Assembly: GCF_030867145.1 (NCBI RefSeq)
Contig: NC_134433.1
Location: 14,949,396 to 15,013,395, forward strand
DNA length: 64,000 nucleotides
Source: Opisthocomus hoazin
Lineage: Eukaryota > Chordata > Aves > Opisthocomiformes > Opisthocomidae
Reading direction: 5' to 3'
Translations under genes and position numbers: made by a program
Shown here: in pieces, positions 3,001-64,000 of the stretch
How the letters are laid out: the number at the start of each line of letters is the position of its first letter
Numbering within the stretch: position 1 is the stretch's first letter
Notes under the pieces: model-generated
Seen by the model: only the letters and a program-made list of their open reading frames with translations
Database searches by the model: none
Told to the model about the DNA's origin: nothing

Positions 3001-6000
3001 AAAAAAGTCTCTTACAGCTAGATAAATAAAGTACATTAGCTATCATGTTGTAAAATATTTATGGAGACAAAGCATTGTAGTTTTTTGGTGTCATGGGTAG
3101 GCTTGGTCAGCATTATATGCAGGTAGATGGTTGAGCTCGCCCAGCTGCTTCCATTTCTCATCTCTGTTAAGTTTTCTAATAACATAGCAAACTGTCACTG
3201 GTTGTTGTTTTATAAAAATACCTCTCTTTTACACTGAAGGCAGGGCCTGAAACTTTGGGGGTGCGTATGTTACAAAATAAGGAACAGAATTGGAGTGTGA
3301 AGTAATATAACACTTAGTTACCAGACAGTTTACTTACCATATCTAACTTTTGGATTTAGATTTTGCCGTGGCTGTAAAATTGAGTGCACAGAAGACAGAG
3401 CTTGTGTTGGGAATGCTTACATTGCTGTAGACTGGGATCCAACAGCACTCCATCTGCGCTACCAGACGTCGCAAGAACGGGTAAAGTTTCAACGCAAACC
3501 CTTTGTTATTTGTTAATAGCTCTGAAGCACAACCCATTTCACCTATTTTTATTTTATTGATGCTGCTTTTGCCCATTTTCTGTTAAAATAAAGTCAGTAA
3601 TCATCGAACAGTATAGTCTGGGCAAATTAATGTCTTAGTGTTAGACCTCTTATGTGACCATAATGTGGAAGGGAAGCTTTTAAGAAACCACAGCAGTGTA
3701 TTTTCTGTGTGTCGTGAGTTGCTTTTGATCTAGCCTCCACAATGTATTACAAAATACGTTAATCTGATAAATTTTCTAAGCACACCAGTACTATAAACAG
3801 TTATGCATGTGAGTAAGCCTATTTCCTCATTGAGTCAATAAAACATATCTAAAGGTAAGCCTATAGCTGGGTTACTCTAGAATAGCTGTTCAAACTTGTG
3901 AGTTGAATCTATAAACTTGTGCTTTATGGATAATTTTGTAAGCAGAACCCAAGAATAAGGACAGTGCATTATTTGTATGTCTGCCTCTTCACAGCTGAAA
4001 TAAAATTTCTTCTAAAACTTAGTGCATACAGTTTTTATCTTTAATCCAAAGTAACTATATGATATTTGTGTGATACTGTGAATAGAGCCTTCCTCTGAGC
4101 AGTTGCTATATGTTTCCAAGTCAGATACAGTTTTATCTCACTTTAGATTGTAGAAGAACATGAAAGTGTTGAGCAAAGCCGACGAGCTCAAGCAGAGCCC
4201 ATCAATCTGGACAGCTGTCTTAGAGCCTTCACCAGTGAGGAAGAACTGGGGGAGGATGAGATGTACTACTGTTCCAAATGCAAGACCCATTGTTTGGCTA
4301 CGAAAAAACTGGATCTTTGGAGACTTCCCCCTATTTTGGTATGATCTTGTGTAATTTTCCTCTACAGCAACAAAACCAAAGTACATTGATCACAAATTTG
4401 AATTGCTAGGTATGTCTCCTTGTTCTGAATACGAAGATTTGCTTTTGTTCACAGTCTCAGGAGGGGCATTGACTTAGATTGCTTCATGCATTTCTGTAAT
4501 GCAGGCAAATAAAATAAACCTCAAATCCTTTTGAATCTTTTTAGCTGATACGTTGCAGGAAATGGTGGTGTTCTGCATTCAGTGTCGTCTGTTCTGACAT
4601 AGAATTCATGCTGAGGCAGACTTTCTGGTAACATGATCTTTTGTCTAGTTGTGTAATACCTGCATTTGTCGCTTTTCAAATTTAGTAGGTTATTCAAAAC
4701 ACACAGTGCTGATCACTGGATTGAAGCAACCTTTGCCATCATTTCCTCATGCAAATGTTAGTTCCATATTTTACCGGCTTGATCCCAAAATCCAAATTGT
4801 CACATACGGCATTGTTACTGTTTTATTATTAGTGTATGATAAAATGTGTATGTTTCATGAGAAACCATTTTTAAACAGTGAATGTAATTGTCCTCCTTTA
4901 ATTTTCTTTAACTTGTTTCTCCTTAGATCATTCACCTGAAAAGGTTTCAGTTTGTAAATGGCCGCTGGATAAAATCTCAGAAAATTGTTAAATTTCCCAG
5001 AGAAAATTTTGACCCAAGTGCCTTTTTGGTACAAAGGGATCCGAGTCATTTTCAAAGAAAGCAGCTAACGCTCCAGGTTGAGAGCCTGCCTGAACCACGG
5101 GCTCTCCAAGGGGAGTCTCGAAAAATGGATCTCCAGATCACTTACACACTGGGAGAAGGAGATATACTGAACAGAAGTCCATCCTCACTTAACACTACTG
5201 TCTTGAATAATATCAAAGGTAGGTAATAATTAGGGAAAATTCCAGTCAATACTGATACTTGGAGGGGGGGGGAATTATATTGTGAAAAAAATTTTAATAT
5301 TTCTTTGGCCAAAGTACTGCTCTTATTTTGAAACACTCATTCCTGTTGTTTGCACTGGAAAGCTTACTGAAGGTTTGCCATTTATCGAAAGAAAAAAAAA
5401 AGAGGAGAAAAAATTTACTCAGTGACAGCAGATAACTGGCACTGTCTGCTTGTGTGAGTGGGCTGGATGAAGAGTGAGGAAAGTACTCCTGCATAAAAGA
5501 GCTAAATTTCAGTTTATATGTATATGTCTGTGTGTACGCAAAGATAGTTTTACTTTTATATACCACTCCTTAGTTGTAGTGAAACAGTGTGTTTTAACGT
5601 TCGATTATTCAAAAAAACCCACGTAAAAAAAATCTAGACTGTGCGTTTACTTATCTTAGTGGTCCACGTTTTCTGTTTTAGCATCTCCGTCTTTGGGGAG
5701 GAAAGGTGGAACCAGCTGTCCTTCAAGTAAAAACAGTAGCCCAAATAATAGCCCAAGGACTTTAGGAAGAGGTAAAGGGCGTCTGCGGCTACCACAACTG
5801 GGTAAAAACAAACTGTCAAGTAGCAAAGAAAATTTGGATGCAAGTAAAGAGAACGGTACTGACCAGGAACAGAGATTTACTTCTGATCAAGGTGATGCTC
5901 TTACTAGAGGGCAGATTTTGGGTGGTAGCCAGAGTGAGCTATATACTGCTCAGGACAATGAGATGACTCTGGCCAATGGATACATCTGTGAGCAGAACGC

Positions 6001-30164: not shown

Positions 30165-33100
30165 TCACTGGAAAAGAGAACTCAGGATGTACGTGAGTAT
30201 CAGGACCAACATTAAAACCTTTGCAGTGGGCAGGAGGATGCTGGCACTGGACCAGTACACCTTGCGTTCGTTCAGAAGCTGAACAGGCCGGAAATTTTCA
30301 GCCATGTATGTGGAGTTCTGCTCATCAAAGTGAACTGTTGAGAACTGAGAGATCTGCAGACATTGAAGAAAGAATAGATCGTTAAATTCTTTTTCTGGGA
30401 AACACTGGAAATTGTGATACGGTAAATGTGCAGTGCCTTACTCCATGGCATTGTGTTGAACTGCATGGATGCATTAAACCTTGCAGGAAACAACGTGATG
30501 GTGGCTTCTGCCAGAGGTCACCAACTGCTGACTTCGTCTAGCCTTGGAAATCACGGGGACTTCCTTTATGTGTGGGCCAAATGCCTTCTCCAGCTCAGAG
30601 ACCTGGCTACACCAGGCCTCTTGACGCACACAGTCCTGTCCTTGTCCATCATGTCACAGCGACAGAGGAGACTGGGATTTCTTTCCTCTCTTCAAATTTC
30701 TACCTGCTTCAGCAAGAAGCTGGCTCAGAGCAAGCAGATGCTCCCTCTCGTGTACTGTGCTATGCTGACCTGTGCGTGGCTGAGCAATGCTCTGTGGCTG
30801 CATGCATTATGAGTGCTCTGCAGGTAAGGAGCTAAAATACAGGGGCTGGCTCTTGGCCGGGCTGTGCTGGCCAGCAGCATTGCTGAGTCCACTCCAGGAC
30901 ATCTGACTTTTTCAGACGTGTACTCTGCCAGCTGAACAATCTGCATTTTAGAGGCAGTCATGATTCAGTCTCTGTTCCTCTCTATAGGACAAAAATGGGT
31001 TACTTAAAGCTGGTGCTGATAGGCTCAAAGTTTGGATTTTGAAGAATTCTGTTATGGTATCCTGACGCTTACACCAACAGGAGAAAAGCAGTGAGCTCTG
31101 CGGGTGAGCAGATGACAGCAGTGGAAGTGCTGCTGTCAAAGTGCTGAGCCAAGTGCTTACCTGGGGGGTTTTTCTGCTTTCTTTTCACATTGTCATTTCC
31201 CCTTCCTCTCCCTTTCCTGCTATTTTTTGAGATAATTTAATAAGGTCAAAAACCTGGCACTAGGGACTCTGCTTAGGCTAACGTCAAGGAAGTGTGTGTG
31301 TCATTGGGACAAAGCAGTGGAGTAGCTAACGAGCCTTTGCTAAACTGTGAGTGAGCAGGCAGCCAAAGGGGCAGATAACCATAAGCAGACCTTCCAGGCT
31401 ATCCCTCTGCGACTCACCTGGTAAATACTGAGTTCAACTGGCTTCTCAAATACTGTCCAGATGACACCCTCGTAGCAGTCGGGAGTGGTGAGGGAGCCCT
31501 CATACCGATAGAATCTTCCAAGGTCTTCCTCAGGTGGGAGTAGAGAACTCAGCGGCAAAGGCTCCATCTGTGCTGTTTGCCCTAGACAAACCATGTGGAA
31601 ACATTGCTCATAACAAGGGCGGAAAAAATAAAAAATTAATAATTGTTCACATTGTCTTCAAAAGTGGCTGCTCATGGCTGCGCCAAGCCTCATCCCCACG
31701 CACGCTTCCCACGCCAGCTGGGGCAGCCGTGCTGCTCTGCTCGGGAAAGCCCTGCCCACCGGCTGCAGGACCCTGCAGAGCACGAGTTACACACGCCTCT
31801 CGTGTTCACACTCTGCGTGTTTTTCTTCTCACTTGGCTTCCTCCTGCAGAAGCAGAAATACTCATTCTGGTTCTGGAGGGGTTTCTTCACTGCAAATATG
31901 GAGAATTCGATTTTCTCCCACCTGCGATGCTCTGAGTGCTTGCCAAACTAACCTTTATCTTTTGGCTTTGACTTTCAAGTAAGAATCTTTACTGTAATTA
32001 GAACAGGATTGGACCATGAAATACCTGGTGTAGTGTATGTGCTTGAAATAAATATATGTTGTGTTTTAACCAACACAAGTGTCTTACCTTTGTATTTAAT
32101 ATTCTCTAATGCACTTATTAGAGTTGCATAGTTTTTATTTTCTTCTTCGGCCTGAAATGGAAATATTCGATTCCAGATCATGCATTTCTCAACTGGTAGC
32201 TTTATATTAATTGTGAATAAAACAGAAAAGAACTGCAAGGCTGAAAGATAACAGCAAGCAGAATATAGAAAAGGGTGAAGGAACTAAGTGCTGGCACTGA
32301 ATGCCTGCATAAGTTAGGGAGACTTAGGTCTTGGACTGTAACATTAACACAATCGATCTCTCAGACAAATTGCTGGTAGATTTGAGATGGGCGATTAAAA
32401 ATTTGGCTACGTACCTTTACAAAGAATGCTAACACAGCCACACCATCTGCTTTGGTCTTCGCTTCGGTTATATCTGACACATCTTCTCTTATGTGGACAA
32501 TGTGAAGCTGTAACACAACAGTCAAGGCCAGTTATTTGTTCGTTTTCCTCTACAGTTCATTGCTGTTCATGCAGCCCGGCTGCTGCTCTCCACCTGCGCT
32601 GCGGTGAGGCCAGGGCTTCTTGGTTGCTCCCAGGCTGGGGACAGACAGACAGCCTGAGGCGCTTGCCCTGGGGCAGGGACCGTGCAAAGAGCGGACTATA
32701 ACTTGAAACTTCACTCATCGGCAATGGTGTCAGTTCATGTCCCCAGAAGGTGAAGAGCTCTGTGGACTGCTGCAGCCCCCCGTTTTCAGCCTGTGCAGTG
32801 GAACAGGCAGATTTTTATGTCATGGCTCAAAGGTGGGTGGGGGTGCGGGAGGGTGTTCTGTCCATCAATCCATGTGTATCAGCACTGGTGACTTTGTCTT
32901 GCCTTGAAGTGAATATTTTTTTTGGTTGCATAGGTCAATTCGTGGTTGCAGTCCCAGAAATGAATGTATAATCTGAATAAGCAGTGTGAGAGTGTAATCA
33001 GGCTGCACAGACTTTGAGATGTTTCTCCTCCCAACAGGCTATCTAACTCCAGGTTTGCTGTCTGTCCTGTGCCTTTGCAGTGCAAAACCAGTGTGCTTTT

Positions 33101-36100
33101 CTGCCTACTCTGGTCAGCAAGCAACATCTCCTCGGTTCTTTATTTCCACTGCTGAGGTATCATAGGACAACTAACCAATAGTTTTTGTGCAACGGTATCT
33201 TAGAAAGCCAGAATTCTTGAGTAAAAGCCATAATCCACAAACAGTCTCACCTACCTCCATGGCTTGTTTTTCTCCATCTATGCTGTGCTCTGACCCGGGA
33301 AAGTATTGCTGCACACCTTGGACTCCCCAATGCAAATGAAATTCTACTGCCTTGTATTTTCTTCCCAGACCTCCGCCTTCAATTTTAGGGGTTGTGCTTA
33401 ATGTTACTTTAACTGGGGAAAACAAAAAAGTTGTTTAAAAAGAACCCAACAGATCATACATTAATCGTATGTGAGAGTAGAGATGCATGCTCTTGAGGTT
33501 CAAGTTTATCCTATTCTGGCTTGGTTTTTCATATCAAGTGTTCCAGAAGTTCAGCTCTGCAGAAACACAACTCTCACAACATACTAGCTGAGATTAATCT
33601 GAGGTGCAAGGGAGAAATATCATGGCCCACTTGCCAGTAATGCACAACAGCACTTGGGCATCCCTCTGCGGCACAGCACTCGGAGCTTCTGCTCCCATCG
33701 GTACCGAGGATCTGCTCAGTGAAGTCGAATGACTTGTGTAGAGCCTCACTTGCTGCAGAGCTGAGCTACCCGCTACTTCAGTTGAATAAATAATAATAAC
33801 TCCAAAAACTTCATGATACTTGTTTCCCCTTGTCAAACGGAGGAGAAGGACAGAGCACTACTTCAGACTGTTCTGAGGTAAAGGGCTTATAGGCTTTTAT
33901 GGCATCCATTGATGCATCCCTTGGAGTATCACTAGGGAGCTGCATTTTGAAGGGTGCAGGGTAACAGACCTTGATTGCACTCAGGGGATTTGTAGGGGTT
34001 TGTTCACTGCCATTATAACCCCAGCAGTCACAGGCACTTTTACCTTTCAGAAGACCCTATATTCCTTCATTTTTTTCCAGGAGAACACCCTCTGTCAAAG
34101 TATCCTTAGAAGTAAACTTGATCAGAGTTTATGTGGTTTTTAAGCACAATTTTTATCTCCTATTGTCTGCACTGTAACATTTGTTTTAGGCGGGGTTTAA
34201 AGATATTCTGCTTTAATTTAGAGTAGTGTTGCAATTTAAGCCAAAGCATCGAACTCATTATATCTGTTTAACGTGATGCTTCATCTGTTTGTAACAGCAA
34301 AACAAAATTTTCTTAGGAGATACTTTTCTACTTATAAATCACCATCACCTCCTGTGCTCGAGACACTTGGGATATATTTTTAAAATTTACTTGTTAAGAC
34401 CTCTACATTAAGCACAGTACTTTTCTTTCCATGGAAAAGCTGTTTTGACCTGAATTGAAGCCCCAGAGATTTCATTTCTGGTCAGATTTCCAAATGAACT
34501 GTAAGCTTGTGTGAGTCATTTAGTTACTTTGCTTTTTTATCTGTAAATGGATGAGTAACTTCTCTTTGTTGGCTTTGTTTATTTAGATTGCAGGACCTTT
34601 GAGACACTGGCCTTCACTATCAGCACATCATCAAACATAATGATAGTCTAATCTCACGTAGAGCTTCTGATTGCAGCTGTAATTTAAGCAATAATTGTTC
34701 CAGTGTAGTACTCATTGTAGCACAGGAACTGGTTGCCCTCAAAAGGAAGAAATTTTAAAAGCCCAGGTTAAAAACCTAATCCTTTTGCTTGGCTGGGAAA
34801 GACGAGAGTTCTGACCAAGCCTTATCAATATTAATTCTTGTGTAAAAGATATTTCTATGCACAGCGACTGTAATATGGAGATTCTACAATATAATTCCGT
34901 AATGGGAAAGTCATTAACCCATATACTGGTGAAAAGTCAAACGTCTTTGTTTTACGGTCTGTCAAAATACTGACATTTTAAACTAGAATCTCTGGCTGTG
35001 AAAATCTACCCAGCTGTCTGCGTTCCTACCTTTCCATTTTAAGTTAGGAAAATATTTGCCACTTGCAACTTTCCACTTTAGGGATTTGGCAGTTAAAACA
35101 ATCAATCAAAGATTTTAAGAACACCTATAGATAATTTTTTTTTTTTTAAAAAAAGGACACCGTATTTATTTTTAAAGTGGTTTAGCATAATATTGTTGAA
35201 GCATCGTCATTAGTATTGCTTTCAGTGGAGGAAGTGAAACAGTGCTAAATTACTACTCAGTGATTGAATGTTTACTGATTTGCTGCCCACTGGTTCACTG
35301 TTTGCTGGATCAGTAAGCAGCCGATCAAGAAGCTCACATCAGCGTTCTTCCACACGCGCAGGATACAGGCTGAAATCTGAGATTATTTCAGCTCATTATT
35401 TAAAGAACTAGTAAGACACACACACTGCGAGTCCCTGGTTGAATGACTTTCCCAGATTATGTTCATCTTCAGCAGAATTCTTCCTTGTGCAGAAGCAAGG
35501 GTCAGAAAGGACAAACCCAGAAATGAAGGGTATAGGAGCATTCAGCAGAAATGATATACCTCTGCCAAAACTGTTGTCCTAAGGCCCTGTACTCACCCGC
35601 CTCCTAGTCCTAGAGGTTGATGTTTGACTTACAGGTTCCCTAGACATCTCAAGTTCTCTTTCTGCACATGCACAGACCCAATTTCTGCTGAGATGCTCAA
35701 GGAAAACATCCAAAATCTAGATAATTCCCACCAAGTTCCCAGAAAGCCTTGGTTCAGAAGGTGTTCTGCGAGTTTTGCTTCTGAAATACAGGGATGCTGT
35801 CTTATTTTTGGTTCCTTGATTTCAAGGAGCGGTAGTGATATCTAACACCTTGCCCAGGATGTGGAAGAAGTGAATGGGTGGTTCCAAGTGAAGACACAGG
35901 TAAAGCCCATAGTAACTGTAATAAATTGACAGTACTTGCCTGTATGTCCATTATTTTCTATGTCCCACGTTGAAGACTCTTTTACATCATATCCTTCAAA
36001 ATTCAGTGGCTTAAGGCTGTTGTCATAAATGACATTTTTGGTGACAATATTGACAGGTGACTGCTTGTTTCCATGGCAGGTGACGTCTATTAGATACCAT

Positions 36101-39100
36101 TCTCGAGGATCTATTTAGGAAGGAAGGAAGGAATTTCTTTCTGTAGACTGCAAATCCTTGATAAAGCCAAACCACCCAATAATGAATGTTATCTCACTTG
36201 GGAAATTGGAGACATCTTTGAAGGAAAGGTCTCTGGGTATTCAAATTCAATAAAGAAACTTTCTTAGCATGTAATTTTTTGTAGTTTTAAAAATATTAAT
36301 ATGCATCAAAAATGTTCTGTTAAGCTTAACAAGAAAACACGCACGTGCAAATGGCTGTAAAATAGAAAGTGAACTGCCCCTGAGGTTGGCTGAACTACAG
36401 AAACTTGGAAACTAGAATGAAAAATGAAAAAAAGTGTGTGTGGGGGTTGGTGGTGCTGGGAGTGAGAAGCCCTTTCATGTGCAGTCAGTTCCAGGGAGAG
36501 CTGGGTGGGACACAGGGATGAGCAAGAGAGCAGGTGCCCTGGGTGGACACCGCTGGTAAAGCAAAAGTTGCAGCTCTAGGTAGAACACTAGGATTTTTTG
36601 TAACTGTCCTTAAGAATTTAAATAGCTGTCTAAATCCACCTTGCTGGGGTGATTAGCTCTGGAGAACATTTGGAGTTATTTTTATATTTGTGCATTGTCC
36701 TTGGTTGAAACAAAATGCATCATTAGCACAAACACCAGTGTCTTCAAAATACCCTTCTTTAGGTGTCCTGTTTAGCACTCATATTTACATAGAACATGAT
36801 TATGCAGCATTCAATGCTGCATTGTGTGAATTTTTGTATTCTTTGTATCAAGAGGCCCTTTGCAAAACAGGAGAGTCCAAACACTAATGTGACTGGAAAA
36901 ACAAACTGTTTAGCAGTACCTTGACAGTGCGGCTCTTCATACTTCTGTGACTGATAGCACCAGTGGCTGCTAACTGGAAAAAAACAAAAAAGATCAGATA
37001 ACCAAAATTGGATGAATGAAAAGCTGTACAACTTGTCCCCTGAAAAAGCAGATGTGAAATGGATTTGCAGCTTGTGATCTTCAGAGGGTGATAACTGGGC
37101 ACTCAGTTTTTACAACTTCTTGTTTTCGTCTGCCCAGTTTTACCAGACCAATCTGGGTTCTGATATCAAATAACTCAGAAGAGAGCACAAAAATCCTGCC
37201 GTAGGCAGCTCTGTCTCTCTCCAGATCTCCTTCTGGTCTTTAATGAATCAGTTTACATCTGTTAATATTCCCTCCAAAAACTGTGCTAGCAGGAAATAAA
37301 AGAACTCTGGACTGGTTGCAGTTCTAAATAATTTGGTTTTGAAACCTTGGCTTCAGCAACTTCTTGAGGCAAAAGTTCCACATCTGAATATATATAGTGT
37401 TAAAATAAATTTCTTTTTATCAGTTCTGTGTTTGCCGTCCTTTTATATACTTGTAAATTCACTTATGCGAGATGACTTATCTCACTCCGTTCCAGGAATT
37501 ATTTTAAAGATTGGTGCAATAAGGAATTTTAAGAAACGAAGGATCTCCTTTCCTGAAAGGCAGGAAGAATCTTCATTCTAACTCAGCTGCGATCCCACAC
37601 AGAAGGCTGCAAAATTTTTCAACAGAACGTCTTAATCTTACTTTTTCATTGTCAGAAAAAATATGAAATTCAGAGGAAGAGAGCTGATTTGACTTTAGTA
37701 AGTATTGATCTAGTCAGGAAAGTAAGGACTATTCTGTTTATTGCAGCACGCTTCAATGGCTGTTTATGACAGCTGTAAAGTTCAAATGGACTTTAATAGG
37801 AATAGTTCTCTTTGGCTATTTAATTTTAGCCAATAACAATTCGAAACCTCTTACACTCATGGTTAATGATATAGTTTCTGTTTGTCTGTGATTAGTAAAT
37901 TATAGACATTTCAATAAATAGCTAATCAATTTTTAGGGATTATTATGGAGGACTCCTGTCATTAGTTTGCTAATTACCATAATTTGCAGTCTGTTATAAC
38001 GCATCTGCTGGAAGGCTCATAACTGCTTTTAGCACCTTGGTCTTCATATCAGCAGCACAGCAACACCATCCATCTACTCAGTGTTTAGAATAAGTTATAA
38101 ATGGAACCTTGATGTAAGATATGGCTAGCTAGAACAACAGAGGGAGACTCGGATGAGCTTGTGGCAATTAATATAATCTTGAAAAAAATGATACTGTTTT
38201 AGTTCATCTCTCACAAAAATTAAAATCATGCTGAAAATTATAAAAAATATTGACTCACTTGCTAGTTTAGCAAATGTTTAGTAGTATTGAGAAGAAAAGT
38301 AAACACTGCTACACTTGTATCCTAAGAACTGTAGTGATTTCTACATTGCTGTTCCACTAGCATTTTGTAATTATAAAAAAAATGGTGTCAACAAAGTTTT
38401 ATTTTGACACACTTCTAGACATTCACAAACCTTAGCTATAGAACTTGCCATGTCTAAGATCGATTATTGTGTTTTCTCAGGCCTCTGCACACAAGAGAGC
38501 AGCCAGGCCTGCAGCAGCGCTGAGCGATGTCCCGTCCCCGCTGGGAAACAGCAGAACCAGAAGCTGCAAGCACAGAATGTCACCAAGTGCCTTAATTGAT
38601 ATGTTAATCAATACGAGCCTAGCAAACACGAGGTAAGCCAAGCTTCACAGCTCTTGATGATGTTTCATACGTGTTAGTGTGTGCATGGATGAAGGACTGC
38701 AGACATATTTTTGGCAGCCGCTCTAGCCCGGTGGTCAGTGTATTCTTTAGCAACCGCTGCACACTGGGATTGGGAGTGGTCTGTTTTTGCAGGCTATATG
38801 TGCATGAACCTTTGGGAGGAAAAGTGCTGCACTGCAGAAATGGCCTGGACACAAATGTTTGAAGGTGGTAGCACCTACGTGGCATGAGAGGACAGTTACG
38901 TGCAAAGATTTGGTCTCAAACTTTCGGATGTGAGTTAGACCAGAGAGGAAAATTGTTGAGTGAGAAATCAAGGTCGGCTGAGGTATTCTGGTCTGTTTAC
39001 TGTAAATTCTTGGAACAAGGTCTGCTGTTCTGGGTTCGTAGAGTGCCTTGCACAATAGGAGCGTGAGCATGACTTAGACATCAAAGCATTACTCTAATGC

Positions 39101-55900: not shown

Positions 55901-56537
55901 GAACAACGAGGCTCTCTTGTCTCTTGCTCAGTGAGAGGTTTTTTGATGTCACTAGAGTTGATCTGAAATTAAGGCTTACATCCTCACTGACCTGGGGTCC
56001 AGGTGAGGGACACAACAGTGATGTTCTTCTTTGAGTTCCAGCAGTCACATACCCCTCCAAAACAAAAAAATCACTGCTCTCTGTTTTCTGACTCTCTATC
56101 CTTTATCCAGCTAGTTTATTTGTGAATGAAAGCTGAGTTCGCATTCATTCCGTTTTAGAATATCCTTCAAGACTTTTAAACTACTGATGCGATCATTCAT
56201 CTTCACCAGAACTGGCTGGATTTTGCTCTTGGTAGAGGTTGCTTTAAGCAGATTGTCTTCTGTATGGTAGTAAATGTGTTTTCCACTTTCGGCTATCCTA
56301 GCAACTTCAACCTAAGTGGCTATGCCCTGGGTTGGTAACCCAAATATTTAAAAGCACGAATGGTTAAAGTTTAATCCACTGTCATGATGATGCTGTGGCG
56401 ATCAAAGCCGTGTGTCAGGATTCATTCCTCGCCTGGAGAGTAAGGTGGCAGGAACACTCCTGCAGCATGGTCTCTTATGGAATATGGGATGAGTGAAGCA
56501 GACCTCGTTAACTGTTGAAAGTAGGATTTTTTCCACC
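52916..56537. other. Intergenic and upstream region of the GPCR
   Basis: AT-rich with no recognised gene. It should contain the promoter and any 5' non-coding exon of the downstream receptor, but no TATA box or CpG island is evident immediately upstream. A run of seven or more C interrupts the sequence near 55152. Confidence 0.5.
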
Positions 56538-57485
56538 ATGAATAGATACTCGAACTGCTCTGCTAACCACACTAAAATTTGGAGTCATTATTTAGTGCTT
56601 TCGCTGGGCATCCCTCAACTGATCATTAACATAGCATCTGTGATCTTCAACTGCACAGTCATCTTCACCAGAATGGCGACAAAGGATCTGCACAAGCCTA
56701 TCTCTATACTCTTCTGCAATTTGGCTTTTTCCGATCTCTTCACCAGCTTTTCTGGCTTTTGGATCTCGATGCTGTTCATCACCAATCCTGACATTACGAT
56801 CTTTGGATCCAAGGAGATGCTTGCGCCTTATGCCTTTTACACTACTTCTATTTTATCCACCATCTATAACCTGGTAAGCATTGGAATTGAACGCTACCTG
56901 GCTGTGGCTGAAAGCATGAGGACAAGATTCAGGGTTGCTAGAAACCATTCCATAGCTGCAGTTTTAATTAACTGGGTCCTTGCTTTCATTTTGGGCTGCT
57001 TGCCATTGATGGGGTGGAACTGCTTGCACACGGAAAAAAATCTCTCTGTCCTCTACAGTCCATTTTGCATCGACTACCTCATCTTCATTGCCATTCCCAA
57101 CATTGCGGTGGCTTTTGTTATACCTCTGTTCACTTACCTGGGAATCATCATCATCTTGAGGAGAAGAAAGCTGAGAATGAAAGCATGTGGACAAGCTACT
57201 GGCACCTACAAATCGGCTGAAACCCAGGTCGCCAGAACCAGTATTTTTATTTGGCTCCTGGCACTGATCTCCTACGCCCCTTTTTTTGCGGGAGTCCTAT
57301 TCGATGCAACCACCCACCAGTGCCACGCCGACCTCTACCCAGGCGTGTACGTCTTCCGAAACTGCACGGCCATGCTGATCACCATGAACTGCCTGGGAAA
57401 CCCCATCATCTACACCCTGAAAGGCAAAGCGCTGGGGGCCAGGCTCCGCGCCCTCGCCTGCCTCCGCGCCAGCCAGAACGTCTGA
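56538..57485 (+). CDS. Single-exon class A GPCR, S1P/LPA/cannabinoid-group-like orphan
   Basis: Seven-transmembrane receptor of 315 residues. The start is taken at 56538 because CCACCATGA is a near-perfect Kozak context; the frame opens earlier but has no ATG before this one. N-glycosylation sites are N6 and N10. Class A landmarks: N38 (1.50), LAFSD with D66 (2.50), E118-R119-Y120 in place of DRY, W146 (4.50) and N288-P-I-I-Y292. The PLMGWNC motif (156-162), a second Cys in the same loop (C177), the absence of the TM3 Cys 3.25 and the end NPIIYTL are all typical of S1P/LPA/cannabinoid receptors. However, positions 3.28-3.29 are P97-Y98 instead of Arg-Glu/Gln, and 6.48 is Y246 instead of Trp (SYAP). 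C308 may be palmitoylated. I cannot assign a named orthologue. The frame is intact, so it is probably functional. Confidence 0.9.
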   Translation: MNRYSNCSANHTKIWSHYLVLSLGIPQLIINIASVIFNCTVIFTRMATKDLHKPISILFCNLAFSDLFTSFSGFWISMLFITNPDITIFGSKEMLAPYAFYTTSILSTIYNLVSIGIERYLAVAESMRTRFRVARNHSIAAVLINWVLAFILGCLPLMGWNCLHTEKNLSVLYSPFCIDYLIFIAIPNIAVAFVIPLFTYLGIIIILRRRKLRMKACGQATGTYKSAETQVARTSIFIWLLALISYAPFFAGVLFDATTHQCHADLYPGVYVFRNCTAMLITMNCLGNPIIYTLKGKALGARLRALACLRASQNV

Positions 57486-57582: not shown

Positions 57583-58029
57583 GCGGGAGGGGAGCGCGGG
57601 AAACGGGAGCGCGGGAAACGGGAAGGAGAACGCGGGAACGGGATTGCGGGAAGGGGAACGCAGGAAGGGGAACGCAGGAACGGGAGTGCGGGAAACGGGA
57701 AGGGGATTGCAGGAAGGGGAGCGAAGGAAGGGGAGCGCAGGAACGGGAGTGCGGGAAGCAGAACACGGGAAGGGGAGCACGGGAAGGGGAGTGGGAAGGG
57801 GAGCAGGAAGGGGAGCGAAGGAAGGGGAGTGCGGGAAGCAGAATGTGGGAAGGGGAAAGAGGGAAGGCAAGCGGGAAGAGGAGCACGGGAAGGGGAGCGC
57901 AGGAACAGGACTGCAGGAAGCAGAACACGGGAAGGGGAAAGAGGGAAGGTGAGCAGGAAGGGGAGCACGGGAATTGGAGTGGGAGAGGGGGAATGCAGGA
58001 AGGGGAGCACGGGAAGGGGAGCGCGGGAG
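57583..58029 (+). repeat. Purine-rich minisatellite with nested periods
   Basis: About 450 bp that is almost purely G and A on the + strand. It is built from variants of a 10-13-base unit such as GGGAAGGGGAGCAC. Longer blocks beginning (G/C)TGC(G/A)GGAAGCAGAA start at 57749, 57829 and 57911, giving a higher-order period of about 80-82 bp. Few stops occur, which creates long spurious open frames on both strands. It begins about 100 bp after the GPCR stop codon and may lie in its 3' UTR. Confidence 0.9.
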
Positions 58030-59627: not shown

Positions 59628-59680
59628 AAGAATAGCGCCGGGCCCTGGGAGGGGCTGTGCGGGCGCTCCGTCCCGCCCGC

Positions 59681-59790
59681 GCTCGGCGGTGGACTAGCCA
59701 GCCTGGGTGGAGGCGCTCGGCGGTGGACTAGCCAGCCTGGGTGGAGGCGCTCGGCGCTGGACTAGCCAGCCTGGGTGGAGGCGCTCGGCG
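59681..59790 (+). repeat. 34-bp direct repeat, 3.2 copies, in ZNHIT3 promoter or 5' UTR
   Basis: The unit starts GCTCGGCGGTGGACTAGCCA and ends GCCTGGGTGGAGGC. Copies lie at 59681-59714, 59715-59748 and 59749-59782, followed by a partial copy. Copies one and two are identical; copy three differs by a G-to-C change (GGCGCTGG). The array ends 35 bp before the ZNHIT3 start codon. Confidence 0.95.
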
Positions 59791-59825: not shown

Positions 59826-60780
59826 ATGCGGGCTCCGAGGCCGTGCGGTGTCTGCGAGGCGGCCGGGACGGCGAAGTACCGGTGTCCGCGCTGCGCTGCC
59901 GCTTAGTGAGGGCCGGGCCGGGCCGGGGGGCGGCGGGGGACTCGGGGGGGAGGGAGCGGGGCGAGGGGCGCGGCGCGGCCTTGCCCGCCGAGGCCTGAGG
60001 CGCGGTGAGGGCTGAGGGAGGCGAGGCCGCCGCCCGCCCTGACCGGCGCCTCTCGCCCCGCAGCTGCTCCGTGCCCTGCTGCAGGACCCACAGGGGTGAG
60101 TGACCGGCGGGGGGGGGGCGGGAGCGGGCCCGGCGGGCCGCACCGCTGCTGACGTCGCCTCTCTCCTGCCGCAGAGCGGTGCGCGCCGGAGGCGGAGCGG
60201 CCTGCGAACGGCGCGGGAGGGGAGGGCGCGGGGAGCCCCCGGCCCGCGGCAGCTGTGCAGGCCGGGCCCGCAGACGGCCCCTGGTCGGTGGAGGACATCC
60301 TGACCGAGAGCGACGAGCAGGACCGCGTCCCGCTGCAGAAGCTCCAGTGTCTGGGTGAGCGCCAGGGGCGGGGGCCCGGGGGCAGAGCCAGCCGAGACGC
60401 GGCCGCTCCTCCGCCCTTGCTCCTTCTCCTTTATCCCAGGCGTGTGCTGCACTGCAAGGCCACAGAGGCTCAACCGTCAGCTGCCTGGCCGTCGCCGTGT
60501 CTCTCTGGAAGTTTGTTTGCAAAATAAGGGTGTTCTCAACCATGTTTGTAGCTGTTTGATGTTAGTTACGTTAATCTTTTTTTTTACAGGGGAATCGGAA
60601 GAACTGAGAGGCTTGCTTCAGAATCCGCATCTCAGGCAGCTGCTGCTGACGGTCGACCAAGCAGAAGACAAAAGCTCCCTCATGAAGAAGTACATGCAGG
60701 AGCCGTTATTTGTTGAGTTTGCGGACTGCTGTCTGAGGATCGTTGAGCCTCCGGAGAAGGAGAACATTCTTCCCGAGTGA
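59826..60780 (+). CDS. ZNHIT3: ZNHIT3, zinc finger HIT domain protein 3, complete
   Basis: Small nuclear zinc-finger protein. With NUFIP1 it acts in assembly of box C/D snoRNPs, and it is also known as thyroid receptor interactor 3 (TRIP3). Exons are 59826-59905, 60064-60095, 60175-60354 and 60590-60780, all GT-AG, giving 160 residues (human 155). The HIT zinc finger is complete: C7, C10, C20, C23, C28, C32, H36 and C40. A Pro/Ala/Gly-rich linker follows, then the acidic [20 protein letters not shown] segment. The conserved C-terminal block is [20 protein letters not shown] and [19 protein letters not shown]. The linker is richer in GC and Ala than in mammals, as expected in a CpG island. The start codon gives an N-terminus placed correctly just before the first zinc ligand. 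Confidence 0.96.
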
Positions 60781-61788: not shown

Positions 61789-63922
61789 CTATGTTGGAAG
61801 GAGTTTTTTTCTGTCCAGTAAAATCTGGTTAAATCCGGTGATGGAACAGGTGTCCGTGTGGGGGCTGACGTTTGCGTAGTGCAGGGGAGACTTCTTACAG
61901 TGAAACTTGATAGAGCCCTACGAGAAAAGAGGTGGAGAGGTCAGTGGATGGCTTTGCCAGACTTTAAGCTCATTTTGCTATTCAGACAAAGTAGTGCTGT
62001 GGTATACAAGCAACTAGTGAATATGGATAAGGGCAGAAGACGACCTCCAAAGGAGTCCTAGTACAAATGGATTTAAGAGAAATGATTACTACAAAGAGTA
62101 CCAGTACTGTAATTTGAACTGAAATTAGCTTAAACTCTGAAGATCTGAGTATGTAGTCAGTACTGAACTTGGTTCTGCTTCTTCCTGCTTGTAGCAGCTG
62201 ACCAGGCACGGGCTGCATACTTGCAAACATGATTTTATGCAACCTCAGAAATGTATCAACAGGAAAACCAAGCACAGGCACAAGCGGATTGGTAACCAGA
62301 GTGCAACTTCAGAGAGGAGCCAGCGTGGGCTGTGGCTTGTCATAAATGGTCTCTAAGACTGTCCGGCATGTGCATGGGAGGTGAAGTACTGGATGGTTGC
62401 TCCCCATTTTCTGCCCTGAAAATCCTGTGTAAATTAGTCTGTGCAGTTGTCTGCACAGTGAAGTTAATACAGAATTACTGGGATATTATTAATGCACCCA
62501 GTGGCTTTTCCCCAAGTGGAAGCTTTTTCATGTGTTCACCTGTTGTGCAACATGAATCCCCTAAGCAGAAAAAATACACGTGGTACGTAACAGAGCCCAC
62601 GCTGGAATCCTCTGCCCTCCCTTTCTGAGGCAGAGCTTGGATCGGTTTGTTCCTATGACAGAGATCAGTGAGTTTTGGTGCTGAATTGAAAGTCCCGGCG
62701 CAGCCCTGTGCCTAGCTCGACCTACTGATCTCAGTCATCCTCGCGTGTCTAAGCCAGTGGAATAAGGAAGACTGTAGCTCGAGAGCAGCCTTCGTGGTGG
62801 CTCTGCTTGACAGAGTTCAGGTTCCTTAACTCATGGCAGCTTAGCTGTGCTGCTGAGAGTGCACGGGGTTTGTTACCTGTGGGAGAGCTCTAATGGAAGT
62901 GATGCCGCAGCCAAAGGAACAGCTTTCCACCTTGTAGCAGTCGCTCTCCTGAAGTACTTTGAGGCACGCCAGCAGGGACTGGTCTCTCCGAAGTCCCGTT
63001 ACAGTAACAGGGGCAGCAGCCAGGACAAGGCCGAGAGGCCAGAACTGAATTATTGCCTGCAGAGGCCAAGATGTTTCCAAAGAGCAAGGTGCTTTGGCCA
63101 AGATCCCCATAGCTCCAGGAACTGAGAAGAACGCCTTTTCTTCACCCTCATCCAACTCTGCTGCTGCTAATGCAGCCATTTTTGCCTGACAAAGAGATGC
63201 AGAACAGTATTCTTAGTTTTGCAGTTTTGAATTTTGATCAAGAGTCTAAAAAAAGGGGGCATCTTAAAGGATAGGACACCTTTTGGGGTATCTTCCCATT
63301 TTATGAAGGTAAGGAACGAGTTCATTCTGCAGTCTTTATGCTGCCACGCTGTAAGAGCAGCTGTGCAAGGCTGGCATCCATCTTCTACTCTTCAGCTAGA
63401 GAAGAGTTTTCTGCAGCACTGACAGCACGGGGTTTGTGCAGTAACTTGACAGAGGTAGATTGTTTCTCAAACACTAGAAACCCTCGGTCGCTCAATTTCA
63501 GTGCTTTCCTGTACCAATGTACTTACCTTCCATTTCCTCCAGCCACGCTTAATGACATTAGCAGCCCTGCGCATCCTTTGGAAGCGATTCTTGGCTAACC
63601 AGGAACGAACAGCTGAAGATTTAATTAAAAGAAAATGAGCACAAAGAATCTCAGAAGCTCCTGCACACAATGTACGAGACGGCATGTAAGCTTCCTCCGT
63701 GTTCAATTAACGTAACCGCTCCTGCCACCGTAAACATCCAGCGTAACTGGAAATGTTACTTGTTATGTTCAGCCACACCCTTACCCCATTACCTGCTTGG
63801 ATGAGGGTTGCAGACCATCTCTCCTTTGCTAGTTTCTTCTGCTTAAATCTTCTCCAGCAACACTGAATGCAAAATGCCTTCTCATTTAACACCTCTGCTC
63901 TTCTAGCTTCAAGTTGCTCCAG
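61789..63922 (-). CDS. MYO19: MYO19, C-terminal four coding exons (5' part outside window)
   Basis: Unconventional myosin XIX, an actin motor carried on the mitochondrial outer membrane. Exons in transcript order: 63922-63793, 63612-63527, 63185-62877 and 61917-61789 (stop TAG at 61791-61789). The phases join into about 209 residues. The first two exons hold the IQ motifs that bind light chains ([41 protein letters not shown]). The last two hold the C-terminal mitochondria-binding region, with [25 protein letters not shown] and [10 protein letters not shown] matching human MYO19. The motor domain is beyond the right edge. The first acceptor is read as ATGCAG|CTGGAG because [12 protein letters not shown] then aligns with the human sequence; GCAG|GCTCG 19 bases upstream (exon start 63941) is an alternative. 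The third exon has about ten residues (around [11 protein letters not shown]) that human lacks. Confidence 0.94.
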
Positions 63923-64000
63923 CTGCATTGGGGATACGAGCCTGCAGTTAATGCTCGGGGCTGGAGTTGTGTTCGCAGCTCTTCCCTCTTCTACAGCCTC

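Follow-up and report, generated by a model that had tools for sequence, protein, structure and literature searches.

The receptors to which the gene described here can best be compared are LPA receptors 1-3, S1P receptors 1-5, cannabinoid receptors 1-2 and the GPR3/6/12 receptors. In chicken and duck, a further relative of the last of these, GPR12L (GPR185), has been described, and constitutive activity was reported for the avian GPR3, GPR6, GPR12 and GPR12L (PMC8065388). A survey of vertebrates that covers five birds presents, in its MECA section, GPR188 (two sets beside ADORA, with no birds listed), 'GPR119B', GPR185, a fish clade near GPR3 and two fish S1P subtypes (Rinne et al., 2019; PMC6504862). 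No other clade in this section is listed from gar and sauropsids alone. 'GPR119B' comprises the spotted gar and five sauropsids (ENSLOCP00000002170 and its sauropsid relatives), has no human orthologue and was placed by the authors beside GPR119. The same survey reports GPR209 in fish, five sauropsids and one marsupial, beside GPR148. Among the papers listed by searches of the literature, none was seen on a receptor gene at CA4-ZNHIT3 or on an LPA-like chicken receptor. The receptor analysed here, P0001, may be an already listed receptor that has had no study of its own; its gene may appear in the 2006 survey of chicken GPCRs, and it could be an entry under another name, such as GPR209, in another section of Rinne et al. 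(2019). On the sequence evidence given below, P0001 is probably the product of a working gene, an orphan class A GPCR that branches deeply on its own inside the melanocortin/EDG/cannabinoid/GPR3-6-12 group, with none of the receptors tested as its one-to-one counterpart in human.

A receptor frame between carbonic anhydrase and ZNHIT3 exons

The window, by which is meant the whole stretch of 64,000 nucleotides of Opisthocomus hoazin DNA that was analysed, carries one intact exon that reads from ATG to TGA with no internal stop and encodes P0001 (Table 1). The initial annotation had described a complete single-exon receptor of 315 residues between CA4 and ZNHIT3, and this description is supported by the frame and by its match to Pfam 7tm_1, which extends over profile positions 2-260 of 260. 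The seven-helix domain together with N1.50, D2.50, R3.50, W4.50, P6.50 and P7.50 identifies P0001 as a class A GPCR, with a short C-terminal tail. The context of its start codon is what we take to be a good Kozak-type match. Structure prediction from the single sequence gave a poor model (mean pLDDT 47.9, pTM 0.29).

The open run at the locus measures 330 codons. When 4000 sequences were drawn from a first-order Markov model of the 1.95-kb region and read in three frames of one strand, none reached this length (mean longest run 123 codons, maximum 298), which rules out a chance ORF. The GC content at codon positions 1, 2 and 3 (0.40, 0.42 and 0.62) is of the type found in coding DNA. The last fifth of the coding sequence (residues 253-315, window 57294-57482) has a GC3 of 0.87 and 14 CpG, whereas the other four fifths are poorer in GC (GC3 0.52-0.59, with 2-5 CpG each). 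About 100 bp past the stop codon, a GA-rich imperfect tandem repeat with units near 14, 42 and 82 bp occupies window positions 57584-58028.

Table 1. Features of the receptor gene and of its neighbours, in window coordinates
Feature	Position	Strand	Basis
Intact single-exon CDS, orphan class A GPCR P0001 (315 aa)	56538..57485	+	Uninterrupted frame; Pfam 7tm_1 E 6.6e-27; one copy in its genome
Translation start context ccaccATGa	56533..56541	+	Read directly
Two N-glycosylation sequons (N6-C-S, N10-H-T), N-terminus before TM1	56553..56573	+	Predicted from sequence motif
TM3: M3.25 (no Cys), P3.28, Y3.29, ERY (R119 = 3.50)	56817..56897	+	Sequence and residue table
Extracellular loop 2: GWNC162-x14-C177 replacing the usual C-x6-C	57012..57068	+	Sequence and residue table
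TM6: S-Y-A-P replacing CWxP (Tyr for W6.48)	57270..57281	+	Trp in 21/21 comparators
TM7: GNPIIY (N7.49-P-x-x-Y7.53)	57396..57413	+	Sequence and residue table
Open frame with carbonic anhydrase exon (CA4 by context)	31343..31657	-	PF00194 7.8e-18
Open frame with second carbonic anhydrase exon (CA4 by context)	35845..36114	-	PF00194 2.3e-15
Open frame with ZNHIT3 C-terminal exon	60304..60777	+	PF21373 3.4e-33
Open frame with IQ motif (MYO19 by context)	63710..64000	-	PF00612 at cut-off score
Open frame with weak UCH (ubiquitin hydrolase) fragment (USP32 by context)	4927..5223	+	PF00443 E 0.0029, under curated cut-off

P0001 is flanked by carbonic anhydrase exons on the left and by the C-terminal exon of ZNHIT3 on the right. 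CA4, MYO19 and USP32 are names that we presume from context. The carbonic anhydrase is called CA4 by context because the PDB search, made with one exon, scores CA14 and CA4 alike, and the myosin-like frames that lie past the IQ motif on the reverse strand, beyond the window edge, are likewise taken to be MYO19. About 0.5 kb before the ZNHIT3 frame there is a tandem array with a 34-bp unit (window 59679-59790, 3.3 copies, 98% match).

A study of copy number in the dog places CA4, PSMG4, ZNHIT3, MYO19, PIGW, GGNBP2 and USP32 in one 142-kb region, in its gene list for that region (PMC7774950), and a study on cattle names USP32, CA4, ZNHIT3 and MYO19 consecutively among its candidate genes (PMC8591823). 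The initial annotation had stressed that CA4 and ZNHIT3 lie apart in human. In the bird they lie on either side of P0001, CA4 being named by context. Since the dog and cattle gene lists keep USP32, CA4, ZNHIT3 and MYO19 together, the bird order is not an unusual one, and it is probably ancestral. In these lists no receptor is named, which is weak evidence for its absence from the two mammals because such lists contain annotated or chosen genes only.

Placement and copy number

By similarity, the LPA receptors are the nearest family to P0001. Profile scores were 103.6 bits for LPAR, 75.2 for S1PR, 51.7 for GPR3/6/12, 47.0 for amine receptors, 44.6 for MCR, 42.5 for CNR, 28.2 for ADORA, 25.1 for SSTR and 9.6 for GPR119, the last from a profile built on one sequence; the amine profile thus scores above those of MCR and CNR. 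In shuffled Smith-Waterman comparisons the three highest z values were those of LPAR1 (42.3), LPAR2 (35.1) and S1PR1 (34.2), and a TSHR-like row (25.7) came ahead of LPAR3 (24.8). The best match in the PDB was LPA1 (101 bits, E 7e-28), with rhodopsin (72 bits) ahead of S1P1 (61 bits).

Phylogenetic placement was based on four alignments: alignment 1 (MAFFT auto, 30 rows), alignment 2 (L-INS-i, 29 rows, including human S1PR5) and alignments 3 and 4 (L-INS-i and E-INS-i, 30 rows, including two adenosine receptors). The TSHR-like row (GPRx_L026, a presumed name) and a P2Y-type row were left out of the trees of alignments 2-4, and MC2R was left out of those of alignments 3-4 and hence of the residue table; a second MC2R-type copy (L037) and some loci of amine and peptide receptors (L021, L023, L027, L040 and L044 among them) were in no tree. 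All four alignments place P0001 in one clade with the melanocortin, GPR3/6/12, cannabinoid, LPA and S1P receptors, as against amine, SSTR, HRH2 and TAAR receptors (90/94, 82/51, 90/70 and 91/78; never starred), and the MECA clade with GPR119 included received 94/93 and 93/87, again never starred. The MCR, GPR3/6/12, CNR, LPAR and S1PR families each form one clade without P0001, with 98-100% bootstrap (100/100 for GPR3/6/12), and P0001 lies outside both the LPAR and the S1PR clades in the four trees. Its position inside the group shifts from sister of LPAR in alignment 1 (32/58) to basal in alignments 2-4, and in the tree of alignment 2 it branches adjacent to GPR119. The branch of P0001 measures 2.85 to 3.54 changes per site, against a median end branch of 0.53 in alignment 1 and 0.39 in alignment 2, and its placement is therefore provisional and its family-level position unsure.

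The AU test, applied to S1PR1-5, LPAR1-3, CNR2 and GPR119 with p values uncorrected for the number of tests, rejected P0001 as sister of a single receptor in nine of ten cases, one of them (LPAR1) in one of two alignments; the pair with GPR119 was unrejected (0.226 and, in alignment 2, 0.298). In alignment 1 the values were 0.016, 0.0007, 0.0008 and 0.0012 for S1PR1, 2, 3 and 4, 0.038, 0.022 and 0.032 for LPAR1, 2 and 3, and 0.04 for CNR2; LPAR1 in alignment 2 gave 0.163. Sister positions to whole families were unrejected (S1PR 0.117, CNR 0.277, GPR3/6/12 0.118, MCR 0.152), LPAR with P0001 being the best tree in alignment 1 and unrejected in alignments 3-4 (0.36 and 0.362). A position with the amine/SSTR outgroup came near to rejection only (0.065 and 0.052 in alignments 3-4).

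The genome of the bird itself (1.48 Gb, 415 contigs) was searched for relatives. With P0001 as query, the matches (24) were headed by P0001 itself and then by LPAR1 at 29% identity; P0001 is therefore a single copy, and a recent species-specific duplicate is ruled out. Together with the trees, in which P0001 nests with high support in none of the named families tested, this leaves standing the view of the initial annotation, which could name no member of the group for this receptor. The queries P0001, S1PR1, GPR12 and GPR119 recovered loci that we take to be LPAR1-3, S1PR1-4, CNR1, CNR2, four receptors of GPR3/6/12 type, MC1-5R and one GPR119; these names are presumed, except those of GPR119 (L038), whose best PDB matches are all human GPR119, and of the human S1PR5 used for comparison. 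P0001 ranked 20th of 99 listed matches with the S1PR1 query (best 122 of 318 candidates scored) and 27th of 67 with the GPR12 query (best 120 of 352).

An alternative that bears on novelty, and overlaps with the reading preferred here, is that P0001 belongs to the 'GPR119B' clade, which we regard as rather doubtful. The distribution of that clade is of the kind that the initial annotation proposed for P0001. The authors place the clade beside GPR119 (Rinne et al., 2019), which is dissimilar to P0001. The genome has a true GPR119 and, among the 79 listed matches of the GPR119 query (best 123 of 475 candidates), no second close copy was seen; the adjacency of P0001 and GPR119 in one tree, and the unrejected pair, also speak for this alternative. 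P0001 itself is absent from the same 79 matches, its score on the one-sequence GPR119 profile is less than a tenth of that on LPAR, and it has neither the R3.28 nor the C3.25 of GPR119. A GPR119 subtype is thus disfavoured by similarity, while the AU trees leave the pair unrejected. If P0001 were 'GPR119B', it would be a listed yet unstudied receptor, and the idea of the initial annotation that the gene was retained in sauropsids would be right.

It is unlikely that P0001 is a lineage-specific, fast-diverged copy of an LPA receptor, perhaps a retrocopy, that survived by chance or took on a new role. The profile, Smith-Waterman and PDB comparisons all put LPAR nearest, the union of LPAR with P0001 gives the best tree for one alignment and is unrejected in two others tested, and P0001 is intronless, as a retrocopy would be, whereas LPAR1-3 have a TM6 intron in common. 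On the other hand, every single LPAR was rejected as its sister in alignment 1 (LPAR1 being unrejected in alignment 2), the branch of P0001 in alignment 1 is some 5 to 11 times as long as those of the three LPARs, and the S1P, GPR3/6/12 and MC receptors of the same genome are single open frames as well.

Residues kept and changed

The residue table sets P0001 beside 21 comparators. Besides the class A residues named above, P0001 keeps E/D3.49 before R3.50, Y5.58, N7.45 and Y7.53 (NPxxY). It has neither Cys3.25 nor Pro5.50, the residue pattern of MECA receptors: M3.25 agrees with 18 of the 21 comparators in not being Cys (the exceptions are GPR119, ADORA2B and ADORA3) and A5.50 with 19 in not being Pro, found only in two ADORA. 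With the LPA receptors P0001 shares Glu3.49-Arg3.50, the absence of Cys3.25 and a GWNC-type end of TM4; with the S1P receptors, Glu3.49-Arg3.50, a single open frame, GWNC and NPIIY; and with the cannabinoid receptors, the absence of Cys3.25 and Pro5.50 and GWNC, although these have DRY in place of ERY. With GPR3/6/12 and GPR12L it shares the wider group.

R3.28 with Q3.29 or E3.29 has a role in binding the phosphate head group in LPA and S1P receptors. Arg at 3.28 and Gln or Glu at 3.29 (Gln in LPAR, Glu in S1PR) are present in all eight LPAR and S1PR rows, whereas P0001 has Pro and Tyr, and ligand recognition must therefore differ from that of these receptors. The initial annotation had assigned P0001 to an S1P/LPA/cannabinoid group; the trees keep it with the melanocortin/EDG/cannabinoid receptors in each of the four alignments, but the S1P and LPA head-group residues are missing. 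The annotation had also counted the paired cysteines of loop 2 as a motif of the group, which did not hold. The exact C-x6-C spacing occurs in 14 of 14 rows of LPAR, S1PR, CNR and GPR3/6/12, and all 17 comparators with a residue at the second position have Cys there, whereas P0001 has Leu169 at this place and its Cys eight residues further on, at a spacing of 14. Three further positions depart from the comparators: W6.48, which has the role of a switch, is present in 21/21 and is Tyr246 in P0001, S3.39 (21/21) is Thr and F6.44 (19/21) is Ala.

The loss of W6.48, F6.44 and S3.39 could reflect relaxed constraint. Together with the loss of the loop-2 Cys and the very long branch, it would fit a gene that has no role any more and is drifting, open by chance. 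This reading is quite unlikely, as the frame is open over a length that no random sequence reached, its codon-position composition is of coding type, P0001 retains nine residues that are conserved widely in class A, and the sequons and the start context are present. It is highly improbable that P0001 is the diverged orthologue of some named human receptor seemingly missing here. S1PR5 is the candidate, because none was seen among the 99 listed matches of the S1PR1 query (best 122 of 318 candidates) and S1PR1-4 were. It was ruled out, since the AU test rejects human S1PR5 as the sister of P0001 (0.0245, alignment 2), S1PR5 groups within an S1PR clade (98/98) that excludes P0001, and P0001 has neither R3.28 nor E3.29.

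For P0001 as a working orphan receptor of its own branch, we infer expression, ligand class, coupling and age from the sequence. A small hydrophobic or lipid ligand would enter a mostly apolar pocket (I3.36, F6.51, F6.52, V6.55, A7.39) in a receptor that would lack the disulfide between TM3 and loop 2, and R7.35, which aligned to gaps in the residue table, could hold an acidic head group. The signal would pass to a G protein through the retained core of D2.50, ERY, Y5.58, P6.50 and NPxxY, which argues for G-protein coupling, with a TM6 switch altered by Tyr for Trp6.48 and Ala for Phe6.44. With its anchor changed, P0001 is not expected to have LPA or S1P as its ligand; the apolar pocket and the group that it joins favour a ligand that is a lipid or otherwise hydrophobic, or else constitutive activity.

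P0001 may be an old receptor without a human counterpart, and its retention in sauropsids with loss in mammals is plausible. The loss in mammals is suggested by the dog and cattle lists, in which no receptor is named, and by the best match to a solved structure being only LPA1, at 101 bits. We hold it as a tentative possibility that the lineage of P0001 is older than the split of the LPA, S1P, cannabinoid, GPR3/6/12 and melanocortin receptors, that birds, and perhaps gar and further sauropsids, kept it between CA4 and ZNHIT3 while mammals lost it, and that it rebuilt its ligand anchor and took Tyr for the nearly universal W6.48. If so, its ligand would be a signal beyond the reach of mammal-based work. 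Should orthologues exist across birds and reptiles, P0001 would be an intact orphan receptor, with no human copy, in a heavily drugged group, the ancestral set of lipid-type receptors would be larger than the mammalian one, and there would be a natural test of class A signalling in a receptor that has neither W6.48 nor the usual loop-2 bridge.

Other receptor loci

Relatives of P0001 were also sought in two collections without vertebrates, where none of 8 pattern matches in viral_contigs and none of 30 in genome_contigs was confirmed. In the genome of the bird, two fragments (L047, L048) considered as LPAR retrocopies were dropped, as they resemble the last exons of what we take to be dopamine receptors. 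Among the four receptors of GPR3/6/12 type (L014, L016, L018 and L024), L014 is the most diverged in the tree of the first alignment, and one of the four should be GPR12L (GPR185). Two open genes of MC2R (ACTH receptor) type, L036 (C3:62086600-62088500) and L037 (C40:40278300-40280200), are 95.3% identical over 1869 bp, flanks included. Contig C41, which carries LPAR1 and S1PR3, we take to be the Z chromosome, and we presume that C40 may be the W; if so, the pair would be an autosome-to-W copy.
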